Source: a virus
Reading direction: 5' to 3' (one strand)
IMG/VR virus record: IMGVR_UViG_3300032560_000078
Coordinates: 1 to 33,177 of that record
DNA: 33,177 bases
Shown: positions 3,549-20,002 of the stretch, piece after piece
How positions within the stretch are numbered: position 1 is the stretch's first letter
Layout of the letters: every line of letters begins with the position of its first letter
Program-made: the position numbers and the translations under genes
Notes under the pieces: generated by a model
Told to the model about the DNA's origin: nothing
Databases searched by the model: none
Seen by the model: only the letters and a program-made list of their open reading frames with translations

Positions 3549-3785
3549 TTATTTGTATTTGAGTAAGAACATAGTGCGCAAAGATTCGTCGTAGAAATCC
3601 AAACGAATATCAGTGAATCTATCTAGGAATCCATCTACATCTTCATACCAAGTATGTTCACGTACTGTAAATCCTAGGCGTTGACGACACACCCAGGATA
3701 TACGCACAGCCGCACCATTTTCTTCAATGATGCGGGGCCACAACTTCTTGTGCCAGTATTCAGATTCAAATACCACAGCTTTCAT
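3549..3785 (-). CDS. Small protein, divergent member of the L-R-W family
   Basis: 78 residues. It ends ESLRTMFLLKYK, which matches the C-terminal pattern (T-x-F-x-L-R-W) of the small proteins encoded on the plus strand at 5565-8911. It has Trp/Tyr-rich middle strands (TWYEDVDGFLDRF) like them. Its ATG overlaps the TGA of the preceding gene (ATGA). Here the terminal codons are AAA-TAC rather than AGG-TGG, and no gene is coupled immediately downstream. The function is unknown. Confidence 0.65.
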   Translation of the reverse strand: MKAVVFESEYWHKKLWPRIIEENGAAVRISWVCRQRLGFTVREHTWYEDVDGFLDRFTDIRLDFYDESLRTMFLLKYK

Positions 3786-4431: not shown

Positions 4432-5568
4432 TTGATTAATCAACTACATAAAACCTGGGGTGTTGAACAATATGCTACCCTAGCTAACTTAAGTGACCTG
4501 GGTGAATTTACCTGTTATGAAGCGCACTACGAACAGTTAGCAACCTACACCAAAGAACGTTATAGTCAAGAACCTGAAGTGTGCTTACAAGAAGTATTTG
4601 ACATCTATCGCAGTGTAAACATCACACCTATTGTTTACTTCACTGAACAGGGGTTGATCGCCAAGATCAAAGAGCTGGCCAATACCGCTGGTAATCAAGT
4701 TAACAAAGGTGTGTTAGGCCTAGGCAACAATGGTGGGCAGACAGTTAATCGTTTCTTGTTTCCTAACATGATGACAGCTGAACCCAAAGGTCGTGGCAGT
4801 AACAGTTTAAAGGATCGTTTTTATGATGATAGAAAACTTGAGCGGGCCATTAGGCTTTGTTTTGAGCACAGGGATGGTAATAATCTTGTTAGTCCTACCG
4901 CACTACGTAGAGCTCTTGAGTTGGTCACAGGAGAGAACATACAGAACTTCAAACCCTTAAATGCTCGTGCAGTCAGCTATGAGTTGTGTAATATGCTGTG
5001 GGGTCGTGTCTATGACTACTCAGCTGGCTATGGTGGTCGTATGTTGGGCATTGCCACTGGCAACCTGCGCCATGATTATGAGTGTATAGATCCCAACACT
5101 GAAACTGTCAAGTATCTAGTTTACCTAGCCACCCTAATAGAAAAGTCTGGATTCAGTCGTCCTAGAATTGCGCAGGCAGTCAGTGAAGAATACATTCCTG
5201 AGAACATAGACTTAGCATTTAGTAGTCCACCTTATTTTAACTTGGAAAAATACAGTGATGAACCCACACAGTGTATGAATCAGTTTACTACACTTGATGA
5301 ATGGTTTGATGGTTATGTAGTGCCTACTATGTCAAATATTCACAAAGGATTAAACAGTGATGGAGTATTTGCCACCAACATCGCTGACTATAAGAGTTAT
5401 GGCAACAAAGAATACAAGGTAGTTGACCGCTGGATTGCTACTGCTGAAAAACTAGGCTTCAAACATTCTCGCACTATCAAGATGATGTTGAACACTCGCC
5501 CAGGTGTAGGCAATGACAAAACCAAAGGTCGTGAAAAATGGGAAGGCGTTTACGTTTTTACTAAATGA
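4432..5568 (+). CDS. Putative DNA methyltransferase, SPPY type
   Basis: 378 residues. The catalytic motif IV reads SSPPYF at about 264-269, and the AdoMet-binding motif is DYSAGYGGRMLG at about 195-206, followed by an acidic residue in ECIDPN. The order (binding motif first, then SPPY) and the Ser-Pro-Pro-Tyr signature point to an amino-methyltransferase acting on N4-cytosine or N6-adenine in DNA. The first 190 residues are an extra domain, probably for target recognition. No restriction partner is visible, so it is probably an orphan used for self-protection or regulation. The start is uncertain: the TTG at 4432 has only a weak Shine-Dalgarno, and the frame is open upstream to 4396. Confidence 0.8.
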   Translation: MINQLHKTWGVEQYATLANLSDLGEFTCYEAHYEQLATYTKERYSQEPEVCLQEVFDIYRSVNITPIVYFTEQGLIAKIKELANTAGNQVNKGVLGLGNNGGQTVNRFLFPNMMTAEPKGRGSNSLKDRFYDDRKLERAIRLCFEHRDGNNLVSPTALRRALELVTGENIQNFKPLNARAVSYELCNMLWGRVYDYSAGYGGRMLGIATGNLRHDYECIDPNTETVKYLVYLATLIEKSGFSRPRIAQAVSEEYIPENIDLAFSSPPYFNLEKYSDEPTQCMNQFTTLDEWFDGYVVPTMSNIHKGLNSDGVFATNIADYKSYGNKEYKVVDRWIATAEKLGFKHSRTIKMMLNTRPGVGNDKTKGREKWEGVYVFTK

Positions 5569-5801
5569 GTATATTAGACGGAGGCAATGGGCGTAAGTTT
5601 ATTGCTAGTGGGCCATTTGATCACGAAATGCCTTACCACTATATTGTCATTGCTGACATTAGGTATTGGCTTAACCATGAGTCAGAAATATACACTTGGA
5701 TGGATGAAAATTTGCCTAGAGGTCGTATGCATCAAGAAGGCATGACCATAGCATTAGAAACCAAAGAACAACTGACAGCGTTTTTATTGAGGTGGGCATA
5801 A
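5565..5801 (+). CDS. L-R-W family small protein 1
   Basis: 78 residues. The middle is aromatic (IRYWLNHESEIYTWMDENL) and the end is KEQLTAFLLRWA. The ATG overlaps the methyltransferase stop (ATGA), suggesting translational coupling. The last codons TTG-AGG-TGG form GAGGTGG, the Shine-Dalgarno of the next gene. The layout strand, helix with W-L-x-E/H, aromatic strands, then a final D/E-x-x-T-A-F-x-L-R-W helix or strand is shared across the array. It could be a small ferredoxin-like alpha/beta fold; the function is unknown. Confidence 0.75.
   Translation: MSILDGGNGRKFIASGPFDHEMPYHYIVIADIRYWLNHESEIYTWMDENLPRGRMHQEGMTIALETKEQLTAFLLRWA
5787..5795 (+). promoter_or_regulatory. Shine-Dalgarno inside L-R-W codons
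   Basis: TTGAGGTGG encodes Leu-Arg-Trp at the end of one gene. Its GAGG lies 8 nt before the ATG at 5801. Confidence 0.75.
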
Positions 5802-6049
5802 TGGCTGAAAATTTATACTTAAACCTTAAAGACAACATTGAAGCTACTAAAGTTTGGAATAACTTTATATTAACTGTTATTGCTGAACACGGTCAATATT
5901 ATACATGGGATCATGTCAATACTGCGTTAGCTGACTACAATGCCAAATATCAACTTGTATTAGACAAGCGAGGGGATTACGCCAAAAAACATTATATACG
6001 CTTTGGTACGCCAAACGATCTAACAGCATTTTTAATGAGGTATGCATGA
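5801..6049 (+). CDS. L-R-W family small protein 2
   Basis: 82 residues from the ATG at 5801 (MAENLYLNLKDNIEATKVW). A GTG nine bases earlier is open but lies on the Shine-Dalgarno, so the ATG is preferred. The ATG shares a base with the previous stop (TAATG). It has aromatic strands (GQYYTWDHVN) and ends NDLTAFLMRYA, so the final Trp is replaced by Tyr (TAT) while AGG is kept. Unknown function; clearly one of the array. Confidence 0.75.
   Translation: MAENLYLNLKDNIEATKVWNNFILTVIAEHGQYYTWDHVNTALADYNAKYQLVLDKRGDYAKKHYIRFGTPNDLTAFLMRYA
6035..6043 (+). promoter_or_regulatory. Shine-Dalgarno inside M-R-Y codons
   Basis: ATGAGGTAT encodes Met-Arg-Tyr; GAGG lies 5 nt before the ATG at 6046. Confidence 0.7.
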
Positions 6050-6324
6050 GAGCAGCACCAGCAGAAAGACATCAAGCAGAACATCAGCTACTCAACGAAG
6101 GGTGGCATGCGGTTCGTTTGGTCAAAGTCACTGGCGACAATGGCTGGCGTTATCACAATATGATGAAGTGGTGCGAAGATACTGTTGGCCCAGGCAGACC
6201 AGAACCTGGACATAATTGGTTAGACGACCAAGATGTTTGGTATACATTTAATTGGTATGGTTATTATAATTTTCACTTTAAGCATGCCAATGATGCTACA
6301 GCATTTGCCCTGAGGTGGCTATGA
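6046..6324 (+). CDS. L-R-W family small protein 3
   Basis: 92 residues, start overlapping the previous stop as ATGA. It contains MMKWCEDTVG, shared with the member at 7486 (VMKWCENTWG), which supports common descent. Aromatic strands (VWYTFNWYGYYNFHF) precede the ending NDATAFALRWL. AGG-TGG near the end forms the next gene's ribosome site. Unknown function. Confidence 0.75.
   Translation: MRAAPAERHQAEHQLLNEGWHAVRLVKVTGDNGWRYHNMMKWCEDTVGPGRPEPGHNWLDDQDVWYTFNWYGYYNFHFKHANDATAFALRWL
6310..6318 (+). promoter_or_regulatory. Shine-Dalgarno inside L-R-W codons
   Basis: CTGAGGTGG encodes Leu-Arg-Trp; GAGG lies 6 nt before the ATG at 6321. Confidence 0.75.
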
Positions 6325-6608
6325 CTTCACAAAATGATTTATATAGCACACCAGAGGCTCGTGCCAATACGGCATTTGATCCTGATGCTGATTTATATCG
6401 TATTCATAAATTTTTATTAAAGAGTAATCATTATTGGCAGTCTATATCACCTAACAATGTTGATAATGATAAATTCTACGCTTGGCTAAAAGATGAATAC
6501 GGTGTAGAACTTCAATTTAACCATGGTGGTAATGGTATGATTGGTATTAATGGGTATACTGTTGTAGATGAACAAAAGTTTTTAATATTTACGTTAAAAT
6601 TCCAATGA
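6321..6608 (+). CDS. L-R-W family small protein 4, degenerate ending
   Basis: 95 residues from the ATG at 6321 (MTSQNDLYSTPEARAN), chosen over an in-frame GTG six bases upstream because of the spacing to GAGGTGG. The middle FYAWLKDEYGVELQF matches the family helix. It ends DEQKFLIFTLKFQ: the L-R-W is changed to L-K-F, the AGG-TGG codons are lost, and no Shine-Dalgarno precedes the next gene, which must rely on ATGA coupling. Confidence 0.7.
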   Translation: MTSQNDLYSTPEARANTAFDPDADLYRIHKFLLKSNHYWQSISPNNVDNDKFYAWLKDEYGVELQFNHGGNGMIGINGYTVVDEQKFLIFTLKFQ

Positions 6609-6826
6609 AAAGAACGCTAATCAACGGTGAATTACTAGACAGCATCGAAAGCCATTTCCAGCGAAATAATGGATATTTTGTTGCTGACGAACTACCGGGT
6701 TGGCTAATGGCCATGGATAGTAGTGTCACTGTGTGTAGATGGCACATGGATGAGTTTTATCTATATCTAGGTGTGGTGTTTGCTAAAGAAGAAGATTATA
6801 CTGCTTTTTGTCTGAGGTGGCTATGA
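6605..6826 (+). CDS. L-R-W family small protein 5
   Basis: 73 residues, start overlapping the previous stop (ATGA) without a visible Shine-Dalgarno. It contains LPGWLMAMDSSVTVCRW and ends EEDYTAFCLRWL. The final codons carry the ribosome site of the next gene. Unknown function; array member by its ending and position. Confidence 0.7.
   Translation: MKRTLINGELLDSIESHFQRNNGYFVADELPGWLMAMDSSVTVCRWHMDEFYLYLGVVFAKEEDYTAFCLRWL
6812..6820 (+). promoter_or_regulatory. Shine-Dalgarno inside L-R-W codons
   Basis: CTGAGGTGG encodes Leu-Arg-Trp; GAGG lies 6 nt before the ATG at 6823. Confidence 0.75.
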
Positions 6827-7038
6827 AAGTTCTAATACGTGACATCCCCTCAGCGTTTCGTAATGCCAATCAGGTGGTAATTGCCAAAGGTGGATTTGGG
6901 CTAGAGCGACACCAACACAAAGATGCCTTTGAGCAATTACACAATGTAAAAATTATTAGAAGTCCGTGGGGGTCTTGGGATGAATTGGTTTTTCCTAATA
7001 AACAAGCATATACTATGTTCTTGTTGAGGTGGAGTTAA
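6823..7038 (+). CDS. L-R-W family small protein 6
   Basis: 71 residues from the ATG at 6823 (MKVLIRDIPSAFRN); an in-frame TTG at 6808 lies within the upstream motif and is less likely. It has KDAFEQLHNVKIIRSPWGSW and ends KQAYTMFLLRWS. It is the least aromatic of the array. The start overlaps the previous stop (ATGA). Unknown function. Confidence 0.7.
   Translation: MKVLIRDIPSAFRNANQVVIAKGGFGLERHQHKDAFEQLHNVKIIRSPWGSWDELVFPNKQAYTMFLLRWS
7024..7032 (+). promoter_or_regulatory. Shine-Dalgarno inside L-R-W codons
   Basis: TTGAGGTGG encodes Leu-Arg-Trp; GAGG lies 8 nt before the ATG at 7038. Confidence 0.75.
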
Positions 7039-7271
7039 TGGCATACTATTACAACGGAACAAGTCATTATATTAAAGTCACAGCCCGTGGTGACTATTAT
7101 GAGTATTCAACGGCAGTTGCGTTTAGGGACGAAGTTGATGCTTGGTTAGAGGCCCATGAGATCAATACTCTTTACGAAGATATGGAATATATCGTCAATG
7201 GTAAGTATGAATACCATTTCCTCTGTTTAAAAGAAGAACATGCTACCATGGTAAAGTTGAGGTGGTCATGA
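7038..7271 (+). CDS. L-R-W family small protein 7
   Basis: 77 residues from the ATG at 7038, which shares a base with the previous stop (TAATG). It contains VDAWLEAHEINTLYEDMEYI, the family helix and strand, and ends EEHATMVKLRWS. The AGG-TGG codons again supply the next ribosome site. Unknown function. Confidence 0.75.
   Translation: MAYYYNGTSHYIKVTARGDYYEYSTAVAFRDEVDAWLEAHEINTLYEDMEYIVNGKYEYHFLCLKEEHATMVKLRWS
7257..7265 (+). promoter_or_regulatory. Shine-Dalgarno inside L-R-W codons
   Basis: TTGAGGTGG encodes Leu-Arg-Trp; GAGG lies 5 nt before the ATG at 7268. Confidence 0.75.
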
Positions 7272-7471
7272 ATCTAAAGAAAATATCTGGCAGTGATCGT
7301 GCTAGTATCTACATAATGAGTCCTTATGAGGACCTCTACGCTGATGACTATAAAAAATTTATTAATTGGTTAGAAGAGTACTGTCCAAATGAATATGAAA
7401 TAGACCATAGCTATTTAACTATAACCGCACATGCTGAAGTGATGTTGGCATTGACTTTTGAGTGCGTTTAG
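7268..7471 (+). CDS. L-R-W family small protein 8, ending replaced
   Basis: 67 residues, start overlapping the previous stop (ATGA). The helix FINWLEEYCPNEYEID fits the family (compare WLEAHE and WLKDEYG in neighbours). It ends AEVMLALTFECV, so L-R-W and its AGG-TGG codons are gone. Instead its last codons contain the -35 region of a promoter for the next gene. This looks like a trade of one downstream expression signal for another. Confidence 0.7.
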   Translation: MNLKKISGSDRASIYIMSPYEDLYADDYKKFINWLEEYCPNEYEIDHSYLTITAHAEVMLALTFECV

Positions 7472-7479
7472 TGTATAAT
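7451..7479 (+). promoter_or_regulatory. Consensus sigma70-like promoter inside the island
   Basis: -35 TTGACT (7451-7456), 17-nt spacer, -10 TATAAT (7474-7479). The ATG at 7486 follows after 6 nt (attagt), so the transcript should start at or next to the start codon. The -35 lies in the coding end of the upstream gene. Confidence 0.75.
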
Positions 7480-7485
7480 ATTAGT

Positions 7486-7800
7486 ATGAGTAAAATAATG
7501 CACTATAAATCACCAAATGTTGTCAAACTTGATGGCAGATACAAAGGCTACAATCGTGGCTTTAGGTATCGCATTGACTTTGACACACAAGGTGAAAAAT
7601 GGCACATTTGGATGGCGGTAATGAAATGGTGCGAAAATACCTGGGGTAAAGAATACACCTGGGGTAATGACGGGTTTCTTCCTCGCCAGGTGTGGAGCAA
7701 CGACTATAGTACAGCACATGGCAAAAAGAATAAGTATTACAGACATTTATATCTATGTCGTGAAGAGGATGTTACAATGATGTTATTGGTGGTACAATGA
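7486..7800 (+). CDS. L-R-W family small protein 9, ending shifted
   Basis: 104 residues from the ATG at 7486. An in-frame GTG at 7462 lies upstream of the -10 box, so the ATG is preferred. VMKWCENTWGKEYTW matches the member at 6046. It ends EEDVTMMLLVVQ from TTG-GTG-GTA, which looks like TTG-AGG-TGG after loss of a base pair or so, leaving GGTGG as a possible ribosome site for the phosphoesterase. The stop overlaps the next start (ATGA). Confidence 0.7.
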   Translation: MSKIMHYKSPNVVKLDGRYKGYNRGFRYRIDFDTQGEKWHIWMAVMKWCENTWGKEYTWGNDGFLPRQVWSNDYSTAHGKKNKYYRHLYLCREEDVTMMLLVVQ

Positions 7801-8687
7801 AAATTGCATTGGGTAGTGACCTACACTTAGAGTTTGGTACAATAGAACTACACAATACAGAAAGTGCAGATGTGCTTGTACTTGCTGGCGACATCTGTGT
7901 GGCCCGTGATATTGAACTTATGAACAGTAACTTAAAAGCACAGCGCGGTCGTGCTGAACGTTACTTGGCATTCTTTGAACAAATATCAAAGGAGTTTCCC
8001 AAGGTTGTCTACGTCATGGGCAATCACGAACACTATCACGGTGACTTCAAATATACCTATGGTATTCTTAAAAATGCCTTAGGTCATTTGGAAAACGTCC
8101 ATATATTAGAAAAAGACGTATTAGTTGTAGATGATGTTACCATCATTGGTGCTACTGTTTGGACTGATATGAATGGTAGTGATTCTGTTACCTTGCGTGA
8201 AATGCCGCACATAATGAACGACTTCCACGGTGTAGATAACAGCAATCATATGATACAACGTAAAGTGCCATTGTATCATTATGATGATGTAGCTAAGACA
8301 CAGACAGTTACATATAAGATTAAAGAGTCTGCTGGTAAGTTTAAACCAGAACACGCAGTAGAAGACCACAACAAGGCCCTAGACTACATCAATCATGTTG
8401 TAGCAGAACGTGCTGACCAAAAGTTTGTGGTTGTATCACATCACTGTCCAAGTGAGCAGAGTGTACATGCTAAGTACCGAGCTGACACAATTATGAATGG
8501 TGGCTTCCGTAGTAACCTAGATGACTTCATAGCTTATCGTCCACAGATTAAATTATGGTGTCATGGTCATACACACGAGGACTTTGACTATGTCTTAGGT
8601 GAAACACGTGTGGTGTGTAACCCACGTGGCTATGTCAATCATGAGAATCGTGCTGGATACTTTGAACTAAAATACATTGAGGTATGA
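7797..8687 (+). CDS. Calcineurin-like metallophosphoesterase
   Basis: 296 residues with the full metal-binding motif set of the family: D8-L-H10, G31-D32, G75-N76-H77-E, H215-H216, and G257-H258-T-H260. These bind two metal ions and catalyse phosphoester hydrolysis. The substrate (protein, nucleotide or nucleic-acid end) cannot be read from the sequence. It overlaps the upstream small gene by ATGA and the downstream one by four bases, so it is part of the early island. No signal peptide is seen, so it is cytoplasmic. Confidence 0.85.
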   Translation: MKIALGSDLHLEFGTIELHNTESADVLVLAGDICVARDIELMNSNLKAQRGRAERYLAFFEQISKEFPKVVYVMGNHEHYHGDFKYTYGILKNALGHLENVHILEKDVLVVDDVTIIGATVWTDMNGSDSVTLREMPHIMNDFHGVDNSNHMIQRKVPLYHYDDVAKTQTVTYKIKESAGKFKPEHAVEDHNKALDYINHVVAERADQKFVVVSHHCPSEQSVHAKYRADTIMNGGFRSNLDDFIAYRPQIKLWCHGHTHEDFDYVLGETRVVCNPRGYVNHENRAGYFELKYIEV

Positions 8688-8911
8688 TAGAGCTAAAATT
8701 GTGGCCGCCGCCTGAAGAATGGGAAGAAGTAGTAATAACCTGGGAAGTTATGTTGCACAGTGGAATTCACAAACCTCCTGTTATACTAGATTGGGTAGAA
8801 TCAGCTCCAGGTGGCCGCTATCATCTGCACGGGTGGCGTGGCACGGAAGGATTTGCCTTCCGCTTTGAAGATCCCGCAGATGCAACTTATTTTAGATTGA
8901 CTTGGTGTTAG
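8684..8911 (+). CDS. L-R-W family small protein 10, last of the island
   Basis: 75 residues. It ends DPADATYFRLTWC, matching the array ending apart from Arg to Thr. The middle (VILDWVESAPGGRYHLHGW) is the family helix and strand. No gene follows on this strand and the AGG codon is absent, which fits the idea that AGG-TGG is kept for the downstream gene. The ATG overlaps the phosphoesterase stop; the nearby GAGGT abuts the ATG and is too close to be an ideal ribosome site. Confidence 0.7.
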   Translation: MIELKLWPPPEEWEEVVITWEVMLHSGIHKPPVILDWVESAPGGRYHLHGWRGTEGFAFRFEDPADATYFRLTWC

Positions 8912-9797: not shown

Positions 9798-11708
9798 CTA
9801 TCCTGTTACTGAAGGGCTTCCGCCACTTAATTGACTAGTAAGTTCCGCTTTCATTTGCGGTAATGCTTCATAAATTTGAGGAGCCGTTGAGGTAGCATCT
9901 CCCGACTGTTGCGCACTTGCTAGAAGTAGTGTAGCGTAGCTGCCGCTGAATAATTCTGCAAATGGTGGCTTACCAGCTTTGGATGGTGTTTCTCCATTTA
10001 TAACTTTCCATGTTTGTTCCCAAGCATTAGTACCTGTGGCTGTTGCTTCTACTGTTACATAGCTGCCTGTAGTACTTGTTGGCGGACGATCAAATCTTCT
10101 ACTAACAGTAATAGGAAAATTCACAGTTGATGTCTTGCCAACTGGAGGTGGCGGTGTAGTAGTCAACGGACTAATACCATTGTCTGACAGCAATCTACTA
10201 TTTTTACCTTCTGCTAGGCTGGCCTTGATTGCTTCACCGTAGGGAGTAGATGTATTGGCCATGTTATGTAGTATATCACCTATGCCGCTACCGCTATTGT
10301 CTGCACCAAACTTGTGTAGGTTTTGTGCAAAGTTCATTGATGAGCCTAGGGTATTTTTAACAGGTGCAGTAAAGTCTACACCTGCTTTGGTAAAAAGACT
10401 TGTAGCAGTTGCTATTGATGCGGTCAGTGCTGATATAGCGGCTGATGCATTAGAGCCCACTGTTTGAAGGAAACTGGTAATGCTAGGCCCACCTGCTAGA
10501 TGTTGAGTAAAGTCAGTCATGCTAGGCAAACCTTTGGGTCCACTACCAGTGCCTGTCATGCTGTCAATTATACTTTGATGATCACTGATTAACCCGCCTA
10601 GACTTGGAAAGGCCGCTGAGTGCAAAGGTGTTGTCACTGACTGTATTTGCCCAAATAGATCTGGTGCTTGGCCAGCATCTTTAACAGACCCAGCACCAAG
10701 ATCACTTAGATGTGTGGTCAGCGCACTAACACCAGAAAATCCTGCTGTGTCTGCTGGATTTGCTAGTTTACTAGGATCACTGAGATCTTTAAGACTCTGT
10801 ATACCGCCTGTACCAACTACTGGTGCGGCTGCGGCTCCAAAGGCTGTGCTAGCTGTACTATATCCTTGTGTTACTGTTCCTTCTACGGTAGAACCTAAAG
10901 AAGGTGCACCACCTGCAAACGCATTATTGGTATACAAACTACTGTCACTACCATTGTATGATGGTAATCCACCATATGGGGCTGTAATGCCAAATTGTGT
11001 TGCGGCTGTGTTAATTGTGGCAGAATTAGTAACACTGCCCATGACTTGATTTATTTGATCTGTGTAAACAGGGTTGTTAAGATCATCTAATGGCACACCA
11101 TTTTTTGCTAATAAATCATTAACGCCTGATGCATTCCCTAATTTATTATTGTTTAATGCTTCTACTAATCCGCTAGGTGTGCCAAAACTCTTAACACTTA
11201 TGCCATTAAACATTGAGCCCGTTGACAACATTGATGCGCCAGCACCACTTAGACTGCCCAGCTGATTTACCATACCTCGATCTGCACTACTGCCCATGTC
11301 AGTGATGCCAGCACCAAAATCACTGTAATTTATGTTAGCCATAAAATCAGTGCTGGTGCGCAGATCTGTTGCATTTTTTATGTGGCCCTGTGCTTGGTTT
11401 AAGAAATCACCAAAGGCGGCATGATTAGGAGTGCCACTAAATCCCAATCCAGATTGGAAACTAGTTAAACTAGACAGTGCAGCCGCGGCCTGCACATTAG
11501 CTGATGAATTACTGGCTGCAATATTTGCCAGCTGTGACATTGTAGCTTGAACTGGCGCCGCTAGTTGTAGTGCAGATCCTTGATTGATACCAATCATTGC
11601 TGTAAACGTACTAGGGGTAAGACTAGGTGCTGGAGTAGCCAGCGTAGCTTTTAAACCCTCTATTATGCTGGTAGCTGATTTGGAAGTTACAAGATCTGAT
11701 ATTGCCAT
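9798..11708 (-). CDS. Large Ala/Gly/Ser/Thr-rich protein, probable virion component
   Basis: 636 residues, low in charged residues and almost without Cys, rich in S, A, G, T and L. Helical low-complexity segments run from 1 to about 500; a more ordered domain (VNFPITVSRRFDRPP, then AWEQTWKVING) starts after a TTTPPPP linker. The size and composition fit an internal virion or tail-associated protein. I do not recognise the family. An AAGG ribosome site precedes the ATG. Its stop lies 5 nt before the metalloprotease start. Confidence 0.65.
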   Translation of the reverse strand: MAISDLVTSKSATSIIEGLKATLATPAPSLTPSTFTAMIGINQGSALQLAAPVQATMSQLANIAASNSSANVQAAAALSSLTSFQSGLGFSGTPNHAAFGDFLNQAQGHIKNATDLRTSTDFMANINYSDFGAGITDMGSSADRGMVNQLGSLSGAGASMLSTGSMFNGISVKSFGTPSGLVEALNNNKLGNASGVNDLLAKNGVPLDDLNNPVYTDQINQVMGSVTNSATINTAATQFGITAPYGGLPSYNGSDSSLYTNNAFAGGAPSLGSTVEGTVTQGYSTASTAFGAAAAPVVGTGGIQSLKDLSDPSKLANPADTAGFSGVSALTTHLSDLGAGSVKDAGQAPDLFGQIQSVTTPLHSAAFPSLGGLISDHQSIIDSMTGTGSGPKGLPSMTDFTQHLAGGPSITSFLQTVGSNASAAISALTASIATATSLFTKAGVDFTAPVKNTLGSSMNFAQNLHKFGADNSGSGIGDILHNMANTSTPYGEAIKASLAEGKNSRLLSDNGISPLTTTPPPPVGKTSTVNFPITVSRRFDRPPTSTTGSYVTVEATATGTNAWEQTWKVINGETPSKAGKPPFAELFSGSYATLLLASAQQSGDATSTAPQIYEALPQMKAELTSQLSGGSPSVTG

Positions 11709-17787: not shown

Positions 17788-17816
17788 AGTATATAGTACT
17801 AATTAGAAAAGGTCAA
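17788..17816 (-). promoter_or_regulatory. Sigma70-like promoter of the exonuclease gene
   Basis: Minus strand: -35 TTGACC (17811-17816, overlapping the iscA stop), 17-nt spacer, -10 TATACT (17788-17793), then 6 nt to the ATG at 17781. It predicts a leaderless message. Confidence 0.65.
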
Positions 17817-18133
17817 ACAGTAAATGATTCGCCGCACCCACAACGTGCTTTCTCGTTAGGGTTAGCAAACTCAAAACCTTCATTAAGACCTTTTTTGGTA
17901 TAATCTATTTCCATACCCTGTAGGTATACTAGGTCTTTTTTATTGATTATAAGAGTAACGCCGCGTTCTTCTATTTCAAGATCGCCATCAAACGTTTGAT
18001 CAGCAAATTCTAGCAAGTAAGCAAAACCACTACAGCCACTGGTGCGCACACCAATACGCATGCCTATACCTTTCTTGCGATTGTACAAGGCATCTTGCAT
18101 TTTTTTTGCGGCATTAGCTGTTAAGGTTATCAT
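17813..18133 (-). CDS. iscA: Fe-S cluster assembly protein IscA
   Basis: 106 residues, the normal IscA length. The three cluster cysteines are C34 (SGCSGF) and C98-G-C100 (RCGCGESF). IscA carries iron or a [2Fe-2S]/[4Fe-4S] cluster to client enzymes in the cytoplasm. It overlaps the end of iscU by 20 bases, with AGGAAG as ribosome site, and the radical SAM gene lies upstream in the same direction. Its frame is intact, unlike iscU. Confidence 0.92.
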   Translation of the reverse strand: MITLTANAAKKMQDALYNRKKGIGMRIGVRTSGCSGFAYLLEFADQTFDGDLEIEERGVTLIINKKDLVYLQGMEIDYTKKGLNEGFEFANPNEKARCGCGESFTV

Positions 18134-18431
18134 GTTTCTTCCTATAATCTTCTATAGCTGATTTGATTGCATCCTCAGCAAGCACCGAACAGTGTATCTT
18201 AACGGGCGGTAATGCGAGTTCTTCTGCAATCGCTGAGTTCTTAATTTCACCAGCTTCCTTGAGCGTTCTGCCTTTGAGCATTTCTGTAACAAGAGACGAG
18301 CTAGCAATCGCTGAGCCACAGCCATAGGTTTTGAATTTTGCATCTGTTATAATTCCATTCTCCACTTTTATCTGGAGCTTCATTACATCTCCGTCATCCG
18401 CAAGCTGGCGCACCAACCATACCTGTGCCAA
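18114..18431 (-). CDS. iscU: IscU C-terminal part, open frame from TTG
   Basis: Open frame of 105 residues, from TTG at 18431. From residue 14 on it is IscU (GDVMKLQIKV, TYGCGSAIASSS, LPPVKIHC), with two of the three cluster cysteines and the HscA-binding LPPVK. The first 13 residues come from the wrong frame. GGAGG lies 9 nt upstream of the TTG, so separate translation is possible, but the sequence there also encodes normal IscU residues in the other frame, so the match may be chance. Confidence 0.6.
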   Translation of the reverse strand: MAQVWLVRQLADDGDVMKLQIKVENGIITDAKFKTYGCGSAIASSSLVTEMLKGRTLKEAGEIKNSAIAEELALPPVKIHCSVLAEDAIKSAIEDYRKKHDNLNS

Positions 18432-19183: not shown

Positions 19184-20002
19184 CTATTTGTAGAATTTTA
19201 ATTCAGCTTCTGTTACTGGCGGAGCAAACGTAGGTTTTGGTAGATTTTCTTTAAGTTCGCCTAGGGCAGTGTGCCACTGTAGATCCTGCGGGCAAAATTC
19301 ACATTGTGCTATAGGTGTATCTACGGTTGCGGCAAATTCTTGTAGGTCTTCTTCTGAGCAGTCCGCTGACAGTGGTTGGTAACTGTATAGCAATTCACGT
19401 TGTCTAGTATCCAACCGTAAATCAAACTGTTGATCAAAATCTGGTAAATTGCTCATTGCTGGACACTTATATAGTTTGCCCTGATACATAGTATGGTCGT
19501 GTTTCATATCACAACTATTAAATGCTTTTACAGTGTCGCTGTTGTGTAACACATAATGATCATCTTGTTTGATCACTGTTGATTGATGGAATACATAGGC
19601 TTCTATTTCGCCAGCATGGTATTTCCACTTGGCTTTTAGTTCTTCTGCTGTTGCAGGATCATGCAAACTTAATCCAAACCCCACACGATATTTGTCCCAA
19701 TAGGTTAAATGTTCAGGACGTTGATAGGTGCCGTTAGTCTGCACCATAATAACACTGTCAGGCCATAGGCGCCTTAGATTACTAACCCATAATTCTAAAT
19801 CAGGATTAAGTGTAGGTTCTCCACCTATGATAGTAATCTGCGGTAGATCTAAACGACGACTCCATGCTTCATATGCAGCCGCATGATCTGCCCAACGTTG
19901 ATGTCCTTTGAAATTTAAATTATTAAAGCGATTACACCCGCGACAGGTGAGATTACAGACGTTGGTTATATAGAATTCTACTCCAGGGAATAAACGAATC
20001 AT
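19184..20002 (-). CDS. Radical SAM protein with extra Cys motifs
   Basis: 272 residues. C16-N-L-T-C20-R-G-C23 binds the [4Fe-4S] cluster, and G60-G61-E-P-T is the SAM-binding strand. The C-terminal third adds SCDMKHDH, KLYKCPAM and QCEFCPQD cysteines, like a SPASM or twitch auxiliary-cluster domain. The reaction (radical methylation, cross-linking, cleavage) is unknown. It is not an obvious QueE or anaerobic NrdG. Cluster genes iscU and iscA lie downstream in the same direction, so they may supply its cofactor. Confidence 0.85.
   Translation of the reverse strand: MIRLFPGVEFYITNVCNLTCRGCNRFNNLNFKGHQRWADHAAAYEAWSRRLDLPQITIIGGEPTLNPDLELWVSNLRRLWPDSVIMVQTNGTYQRPEHLTYWDKYRVGFGLSLHDPATAEELKAKWKYHAGEIEAYVFHQSTVIKQDDHYVLHNSDTVKAFNSCDMKHDHTMYQGKLYKCPAMSNLPDFDQQFDLRLDTRQRELLYSYQPLSADCSEEDLQEFAATVDTPIAQCEFCPQDLQWHTALGELKENLPKPTFAPPVTEAELKFYK

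Follow-up and report, generated by a model that had tools for sequence, protein, structure and literature searches.

The window analysed here is the whole of the virus record IMGVR_UViG_3300032560_000078 (33,177 bases, no further contigs). Positions 5565 to 8911 of its forward strand hold ten short genes and one metallophosphoesterase-like gene, and the full array is also present, with the protein of every gene identical, in a 149-kb viral contig (IMGVR_UViG_3300022602_000036). All array genes given below lie on the forward strand. Gene a (5565 to 5801) is a family member ending in L-R-W-A; its motif TTG-AGG-TGG occupies 5787 to 5795, with AGG at 5790 to 5792, and reads on as TTG-AGG-TGG-GCA-TAA(TG), so that the ATG of the next gene stands at 5801 in a TAATG, 8 nt away. 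Gene b (5801 to 6049) ends in L-M-R-Y-A, written ATG-AGG-TAT-GCA-TGA with the motif at 6035 to 6043, and is followed by an ATG at 6046 (ATGA, 5 nt). Gene c (6046 to 6324) ends in A-L-R-W-L, written CTG-AGG-TGG-CTA-TGA with the motif at 6310 to 6318, and the next ATG is at 6321 (ATGA, 5 nt). The same codons, here from 6812 with the motif extending to 6820, close gene e (6605 to 6826; C-L-R-W-L), whose neighbor starts at 6823 (ATGA, 5 nt). Gene f (6823 to 7038) ends in L-L-R-W-S, TTG-AGG-TGG-AGT-TAA(TG), with the motif at 7024 to 7032 and the next ATG at 7038 (TAATG, 8 nt), and gene g (7038 to 7271) ends in K-L-R-W-S, TTG-AGG-TGG-TCA-TGA, with the motif at 7257 to 7265 and the next ATG at 7268 (ATGA, 5 nt).

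The remaining genes of the array lack the AGG. Gene d (6321 to 6608), which ends in T-L-K-F-Q and is coupled through an ATGA to the start at 6605, is the exception among its neighbors. Array member h (7268 to 7471) ends in ALTFECV; the next ATG, at 7486, is 14 nt past its stop, in a frame that a GTG at -1 also opens. Array member i (7486 to 7800) ends in LLVVQ (TTG-GTG-GTA-CAA-TGA) and is coupled through an ATGA, with GGTGG upstream, to the metallophosphoesterase-like gene that comes after the array (7797 to 8687; phrog_1649, E 2.5e-50). We considered whether gene i might be a frameshifted or damaged version of the L-R-W ending and rejected this, as its homologues likewise end in LLVxx. The last family member, gene j (8684 to 8911), ends in R-L-T-W-C (TTG-ACT-TGG-TGT-TAG) with no gene behind it, and a solo family member on the reverse strand (3549 to 3785) ends in L-L-K-Y-K (CTC-AAA-TAC-AAA-TAA), again with no gene behind.

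Elsewhere in the window, all on the reverse strand, we noted two adjoining, overlapping genes for iron-sulphur cluster assembly at 17813 to 18431, NifU_N (Pfam, 1e-34) and an A-type Fe-S_biosyn protein (2.5e-19), and near them a radical SAM protein at 19184 to 20002 (Pfam, 5.6e-9). A 611-residue protein at 685 to 2520 is built of repeated G-N-T-x-V-T-G-N-T-like units; it looks like a beta-helical fibre and matches only PHROGs of unknown function. The 636-residue protein at 9798 to 11708 had no match in Pfam or PHROG.

Six gene junctions with an AGG before the next start

A sequence-only reading of this DNA had proposed that, at six junctions, the C-terminal codons of one gene provide the Shine-Dalgarno (SD) site of the next. 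The description was accurate throughout: every coordinate was exact, each junction reads [Leu/Met]-AGG-[TGG/TAT], and the start overlaps or adjoins the preceding stop (ATGA or TAATG) at 6/6, the AGG lying 5 nt before the ATG at the four ATGA junctions and 8 nt before it at the two TAATG junctions, within the 5 to 8 nt that had been claimed. The uncoupled members, 3549 to 3785 with AAA-TAC and 8684 to 8911 with ACT-TGG, lack the AGG as described. What the reading had overlooked is gene d, which is coupled and yet ends in TTA-AAA-TTC-CAA-TGA, and the likewise coupled gene i.

The claim that AGG is otherwise uncommon for Arg held up when we counted codons: the window has 373 Arg codons, 21 of them AGG, and outside the motif the figure is 15 of 367. 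Given the latter proportion, AGG at all six junctions far exceeds what chance would give, the probability being about (0.041)^6 = 5e-9 in a rough binomial estimate from window counts. Counting both strands, TGAGGTGG occurs five times in the window, every copy at these junctions (0.7 expected in shuffles), and GAGGTGG-N(0-3)-ATG is found three times against 0.09 expected.

A large family of small phage proteins

For the protein family itself, databases offered little. In the window, no member scored above a curated cut-off in Pfam or PHROG, and neither Pfam-A nor PHROG produced a match (curated cut-off or E<0.01) for 47 aligned members. Searching 50,697 records of cultured phages at nucleotide and protein level with the array and four of its members yielded no more than a short match, to a metallophosphoesterase. 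When bacterial genome contigs were scanned with one member, no relative appeared, and a literature search turned up the general phenomenon of internal SD sites but no description of this family.

AlphaFold2 predicts beta-alpha-beta-beta-alpha cores for two members, one from relative L213 (pLDDT 81.5) and gene c of the window (88.2), in which the motif would close the last helix. With a ferredoxin-like or ACT-like small alpha/beta fold as the candidate, a fold search against solved structures peaked at Z 5-6 with several unrelated chains, among them an ACT domain (5v0s_A; Z 5.5, 56 aligned, rmsd 2.1); Foldseek gave nothing below E 1, no clear fold relative emerged from the PDB, and searching PDB sequences with a profile reached E 0.17 at best. 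Foldseek did detect a likeness between the family model and BFVD proteins from uncultured Caudovirales (e.g., A0A6J7WFP6), at best with E 1.5e-4 and TM 0.79 by target length. Judged from these predicted models, the proteins of uncultured phages in BFVD are the only convincing fold matches; their annotation reads "uncharacterised", with no function, family name or remark on gene junctions. The paralogues are so diverged that little except the ending aligns. Their strong divergence, tandem layout and absence from curated families make a role as accessory phage proteins, highly variable from one phage to another, the most likely one. What has been uncovered is thus a large family of small proteins, with up to 14 members in a row among the matches listed, on contigs of up to 350 kb, and with neither a curated model nor a clear match to a solved structure.

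AGG use depends on a gene following

To collect relatives, we scanned viral contigs for T-M-F-x-L-R-W-x-stop, allowing every Arg codon and requiring nothing downstream (the pattern accepts TAA and TGA stops only). Since this pattern is blind to both the Arg codon and the downstream gene, relatives should not be picked by the very feature under test. The sample was extended by loci retrieved with the array genes and with the phosphoesterase, and by the whole arrays of larger contigs; hundreds of relatives entered the test, most of them from the Arg-codon-blind pattern. Among the matches listed, this regular-expression set comprises 821 members including those of the window, 465 of them ending in Arg-Trp, and may include a few unrelated ends; a start at -4 or -1 follows in 540/821. 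Judging by the type of data set involved, the source phages appear to be mainly from freshwater; they are uncultured and mostly large.

All counts in this paragraph refer to the matches listed. Arg-Trp endings use AGG in 306 of 378 cases (81%) if a start lies at -4 or -1, versus 18 of 87 (21%) otherwise (Fisher p=3e-26). Within the latter group, AGG was seen in 11/27 endings with an ATG 0 to 12 nt past the stop and in 7/38 with no start found, where gene calls are open reading frames, such that this class may hide genes of <45 codons; these two classes pooled give 18/65. Endings with a start inside the motif gave 0/22, partly by construction because AGG-TGG cannot form that ATG. The fraction seen when no start was found is still above background, AGG being 5.7% of the Arg codons in these phages and 1/40 at [LMVI]RW sites inside long ORFs; the excess could stem from short genes that went undetected or from neighbors lost recently.

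Relatedness among the sequences does not explain the contrast, since three tests that take it into account agree. With one member per homologue cluster, AGG use was 85% in coupled versus 28% in other endings (median p 1e-12); comparing contigs, AGG was higher when coupled in 40 and the opposite in 4; and in homologue clusters that contain both contexts, coupled members had the higher AGG use in 24 and the lower in 2 (p=1e-5). Thus, AGG choice depends on the presence of a downstream start. Had the AGG been equally frequent in terminal or solo members, the sequence-only reading would have lost its basis; we looked for this outcome and it did not occur, and the AGG was instead tied to a correctly spaced start across paralogues, clusters and contigs. 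An illustrative example is gene a, which has AGG before a gene in both the window and relative L011; its homologues without a start at -4 or -1 have CGT (L013, with nothing behind), CGA (L005) or AGA (L092). Similarly, gene j has Thr (ACT) at the end of the array in the window, while its homologue in L130 (5620 to 5847), with a gene behind, ends in L-R-W-F with AGG. At the same time, about 19% of the coupled Arg-Trp members among the matches listed lack AGG, which, together with the coupled but siteless gene at 6321 to 6608, argues that the site is an aid but dispensable.

Probable Shine-Dalgarno character of the AGG tail

TTG-AGG-TGG includes GAGGTG, of which all six bases match AAGGAGGTGA, the complement of the 16S rRNA 3′ end as derived from the general bacterial tail, from which the host's own may differ. 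The codon preceding AGG should therefore matter too; indeed, in coupled Arg-Trp members 87% of the Leu codons in front of AGG have G as third base, compared with 28% for Leu codons overall in long ORFs. Spacing had a visible effect, as only 2/8 tails had AGG when the distance to the start would be 11 nt or more. By comparison, AGG was found in 82% of tails before a family gene and in 75% before an unrelated gene (p=0.16), and in 11/12 tails when the unrelated gene exceeded 130 aa. This pattern marks the AGG tail as a probable signal for translation and not as a hallmark of the family. In three relatives (L011 at 8497, L026 at 4567, L057 at 7623), each with AGG in the tail, a family gene is directly followed by a similar unrelated gene starting with M-x-T-I-x-L-D-M-D-G-V-V, which looks like a HAD phosphatase by eye.

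Ordinary coupled pairs from the same contigs, taken after removal of true family members, also carried such sites: 45% had a tail match of 4 or more, and Arg codons 3 to 4 places from the end were AGG in 51/130. The family thus shows in strong form an effect that is general. SD sites inside the upstream gene have been published before, as in a 2009 study (PMC2784483, citing Eyre-Walker 1996), according to which genes 1 to 4 bp apart often have an SD site, located within the coding sequence of the upstream gene. The closely spaced genes studied here resemble those overlapping pairs in this respect; the difference is that here one protein motif of one multigene family repeatedly hosts the site, that the synonymous choice switches with context among homologues, and that the same codons can hold a start codon instead. 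At the Caulobacter trmD-rplS pair, synonymous changes in the upstream gene alter downstream translation (PMC8144410). While the regulatory region there also lies within the upstream coding sequence, it is a predicted mRNA hairpin at one gene pair, as opposed to a repeated GAGGTG in arrays of paralogues that we know from their sequences. The device as such is known already; what is novel is the family and the scale of its use.

The protein ending is separate from the codon choice

The sequence-only reading had further held that protein ending and translation signal are tied together. This is correct for the codons, as AGG goes with a following start, but not for the ending itself, which is kept without a gene behind: such members retain Leu-Arg/Lys-Trp, coded by CGT, CGC, CGA or AGA. 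A profile built solely from the part before the motif, albeit from seeds that themselves ended in LRW, recovered 211 members, 156 of them ending in L-R-W, and among the recovered members the Arg-Trp ending was about equally common with and without a coupled gene. Leu-Arg-Trp is thus a protein feature in its own right, and the codons alone are tuned. There is a suggestion that coupling also shifts the residue, favoring Arg over Lys: 87% of coupled endings had Arg versus 69% of the others (p=1e-4; one per cluster, p=0.04; clusters, 10 versus 4).

The same two codons have a second use. A codon with a final A (AGA, CGA, AAA) creates an ATG when TGG comes next (NNA-TGG). Where a Trp-ended tail had no start at -4 or -1, the frame from this inner ATG was open for 45 codons in 43/74 tails with NNA-TGG versus 10/62 others (p=5e-7), an excess indicating that the two codons can hold either a ribosome site or a start codon. 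As positions -10, -4 and -1 share a frame, the sequence of members that have several ATGs is compatible with the use of any of them.

Interpretation and alternatives

Tail codons very probably double as a predicted SD site, which fixes the synonymous choice only where a gene follows. We envision that the tandem arrays of diverged paralogues encode small (about 55 to 110 aa) alpha/beta proteins whose last helix would end in Leu-Arg-Trp plus one residue. With the genes overlapping or abutting (ATGA, TAATG), each start region would fall within the tail of the previous gene, where TTG/CTG-AGG-TGG spells GAGGTG and, at 5 or 8 nt from the following start, may pair with the 3′ end of 16S rRNA. Selection to initiate the next gene would then favor AGG and G-ending Leu codons only where a gene follows, the same residues elsewhere being written CGN, AGA or AAA; in the second mode, an A-ending codon before TGG would place the next gene's ATG within the Arg-Trp codons. 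The context dependence of the codons is a plain observation; that ribosomes use the predicted site, and that translation is coupled, we infer from the sequences. Selection for internal ribosome-binding sites usually appears as a faint average across many gene ends. Here, one ending exists in hundreds of copies with and without a next gene, a natural experiment that splits, codon by codon, the constraint on the protein from that on the translation signal.

The AGG might simply be inherited from an ancestral TTG-AGG-TGG, its codon choice having no role, as the ending common to all members and the above-background AGG in some without a gene behind would suggest. This is extremely unlikely, as homologues of the same gene switch to CGT, CGC, CGA, AGA or Lys/Thr without a start (24/26 informative clusters) and the third bases are kept in paralogues that are otherwise highly diverged. 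A role of AGG as a slow codon, whose rarity in these phages would let it delay the ribosome near the stop and so aid termination-reinitiation or folding, is very unlikely too: the even rarer CGG is not enriched in coupled tails (16/378, i.e., 4.2%, versus 3.5% background), the neighboring Leu also shifts to the G-ending codons that complete GAGGTG, and AGG use drops at the wrong spacing. Variable gene order among relatives, with the motif as the main DNA common to paralogues, would fit the idea that the repeated TTGAGGTGG serves as a homology seed for recombination that shuffles or duplicates cassettes. We nevertheless regard this as an improbable reason for the AGG, given that its frequency differs little before unrelated and family genes, that it is lost where nothing follows, and that adjacent members are not significantly more alike. 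Recombination may be a side effect of the repeated motif.

The preferred reading, an SD site in the tail codons, could be taken further to a modular format, in which the last codons supply a site (AGG-TGG) or a start (NNA-TGG) for any next gene, such that cassettes could shuffle without loss of expression, the need for a site biasing both codons and residue (Arg over Lys). We put this forward tentatively and lean slightly against it.

Array evolution

The suggestion that the array grows by tandem duplication fared less well. A few adjacent pairs do look like duplicates, but alike pairs were 1.9% of adjacent versus 0.9% of non-adjacent pairs (p=0.08), and recent tandem duplication is at most occasional, with weak support. 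Gene order is reshuffled between relatives while the junction geometry is kept: gene c is followed by gene d in the window and by gene a in G008, and gene f by gene g in the window and by gene c in G003. Arrays of 9 to 14 consecutive members, all differing in sequence, are seen in large contigs from uncultured phages, namely in L266 (G028, 43500 to 53500), L254 (G025, 155500 to 163000) and L247.
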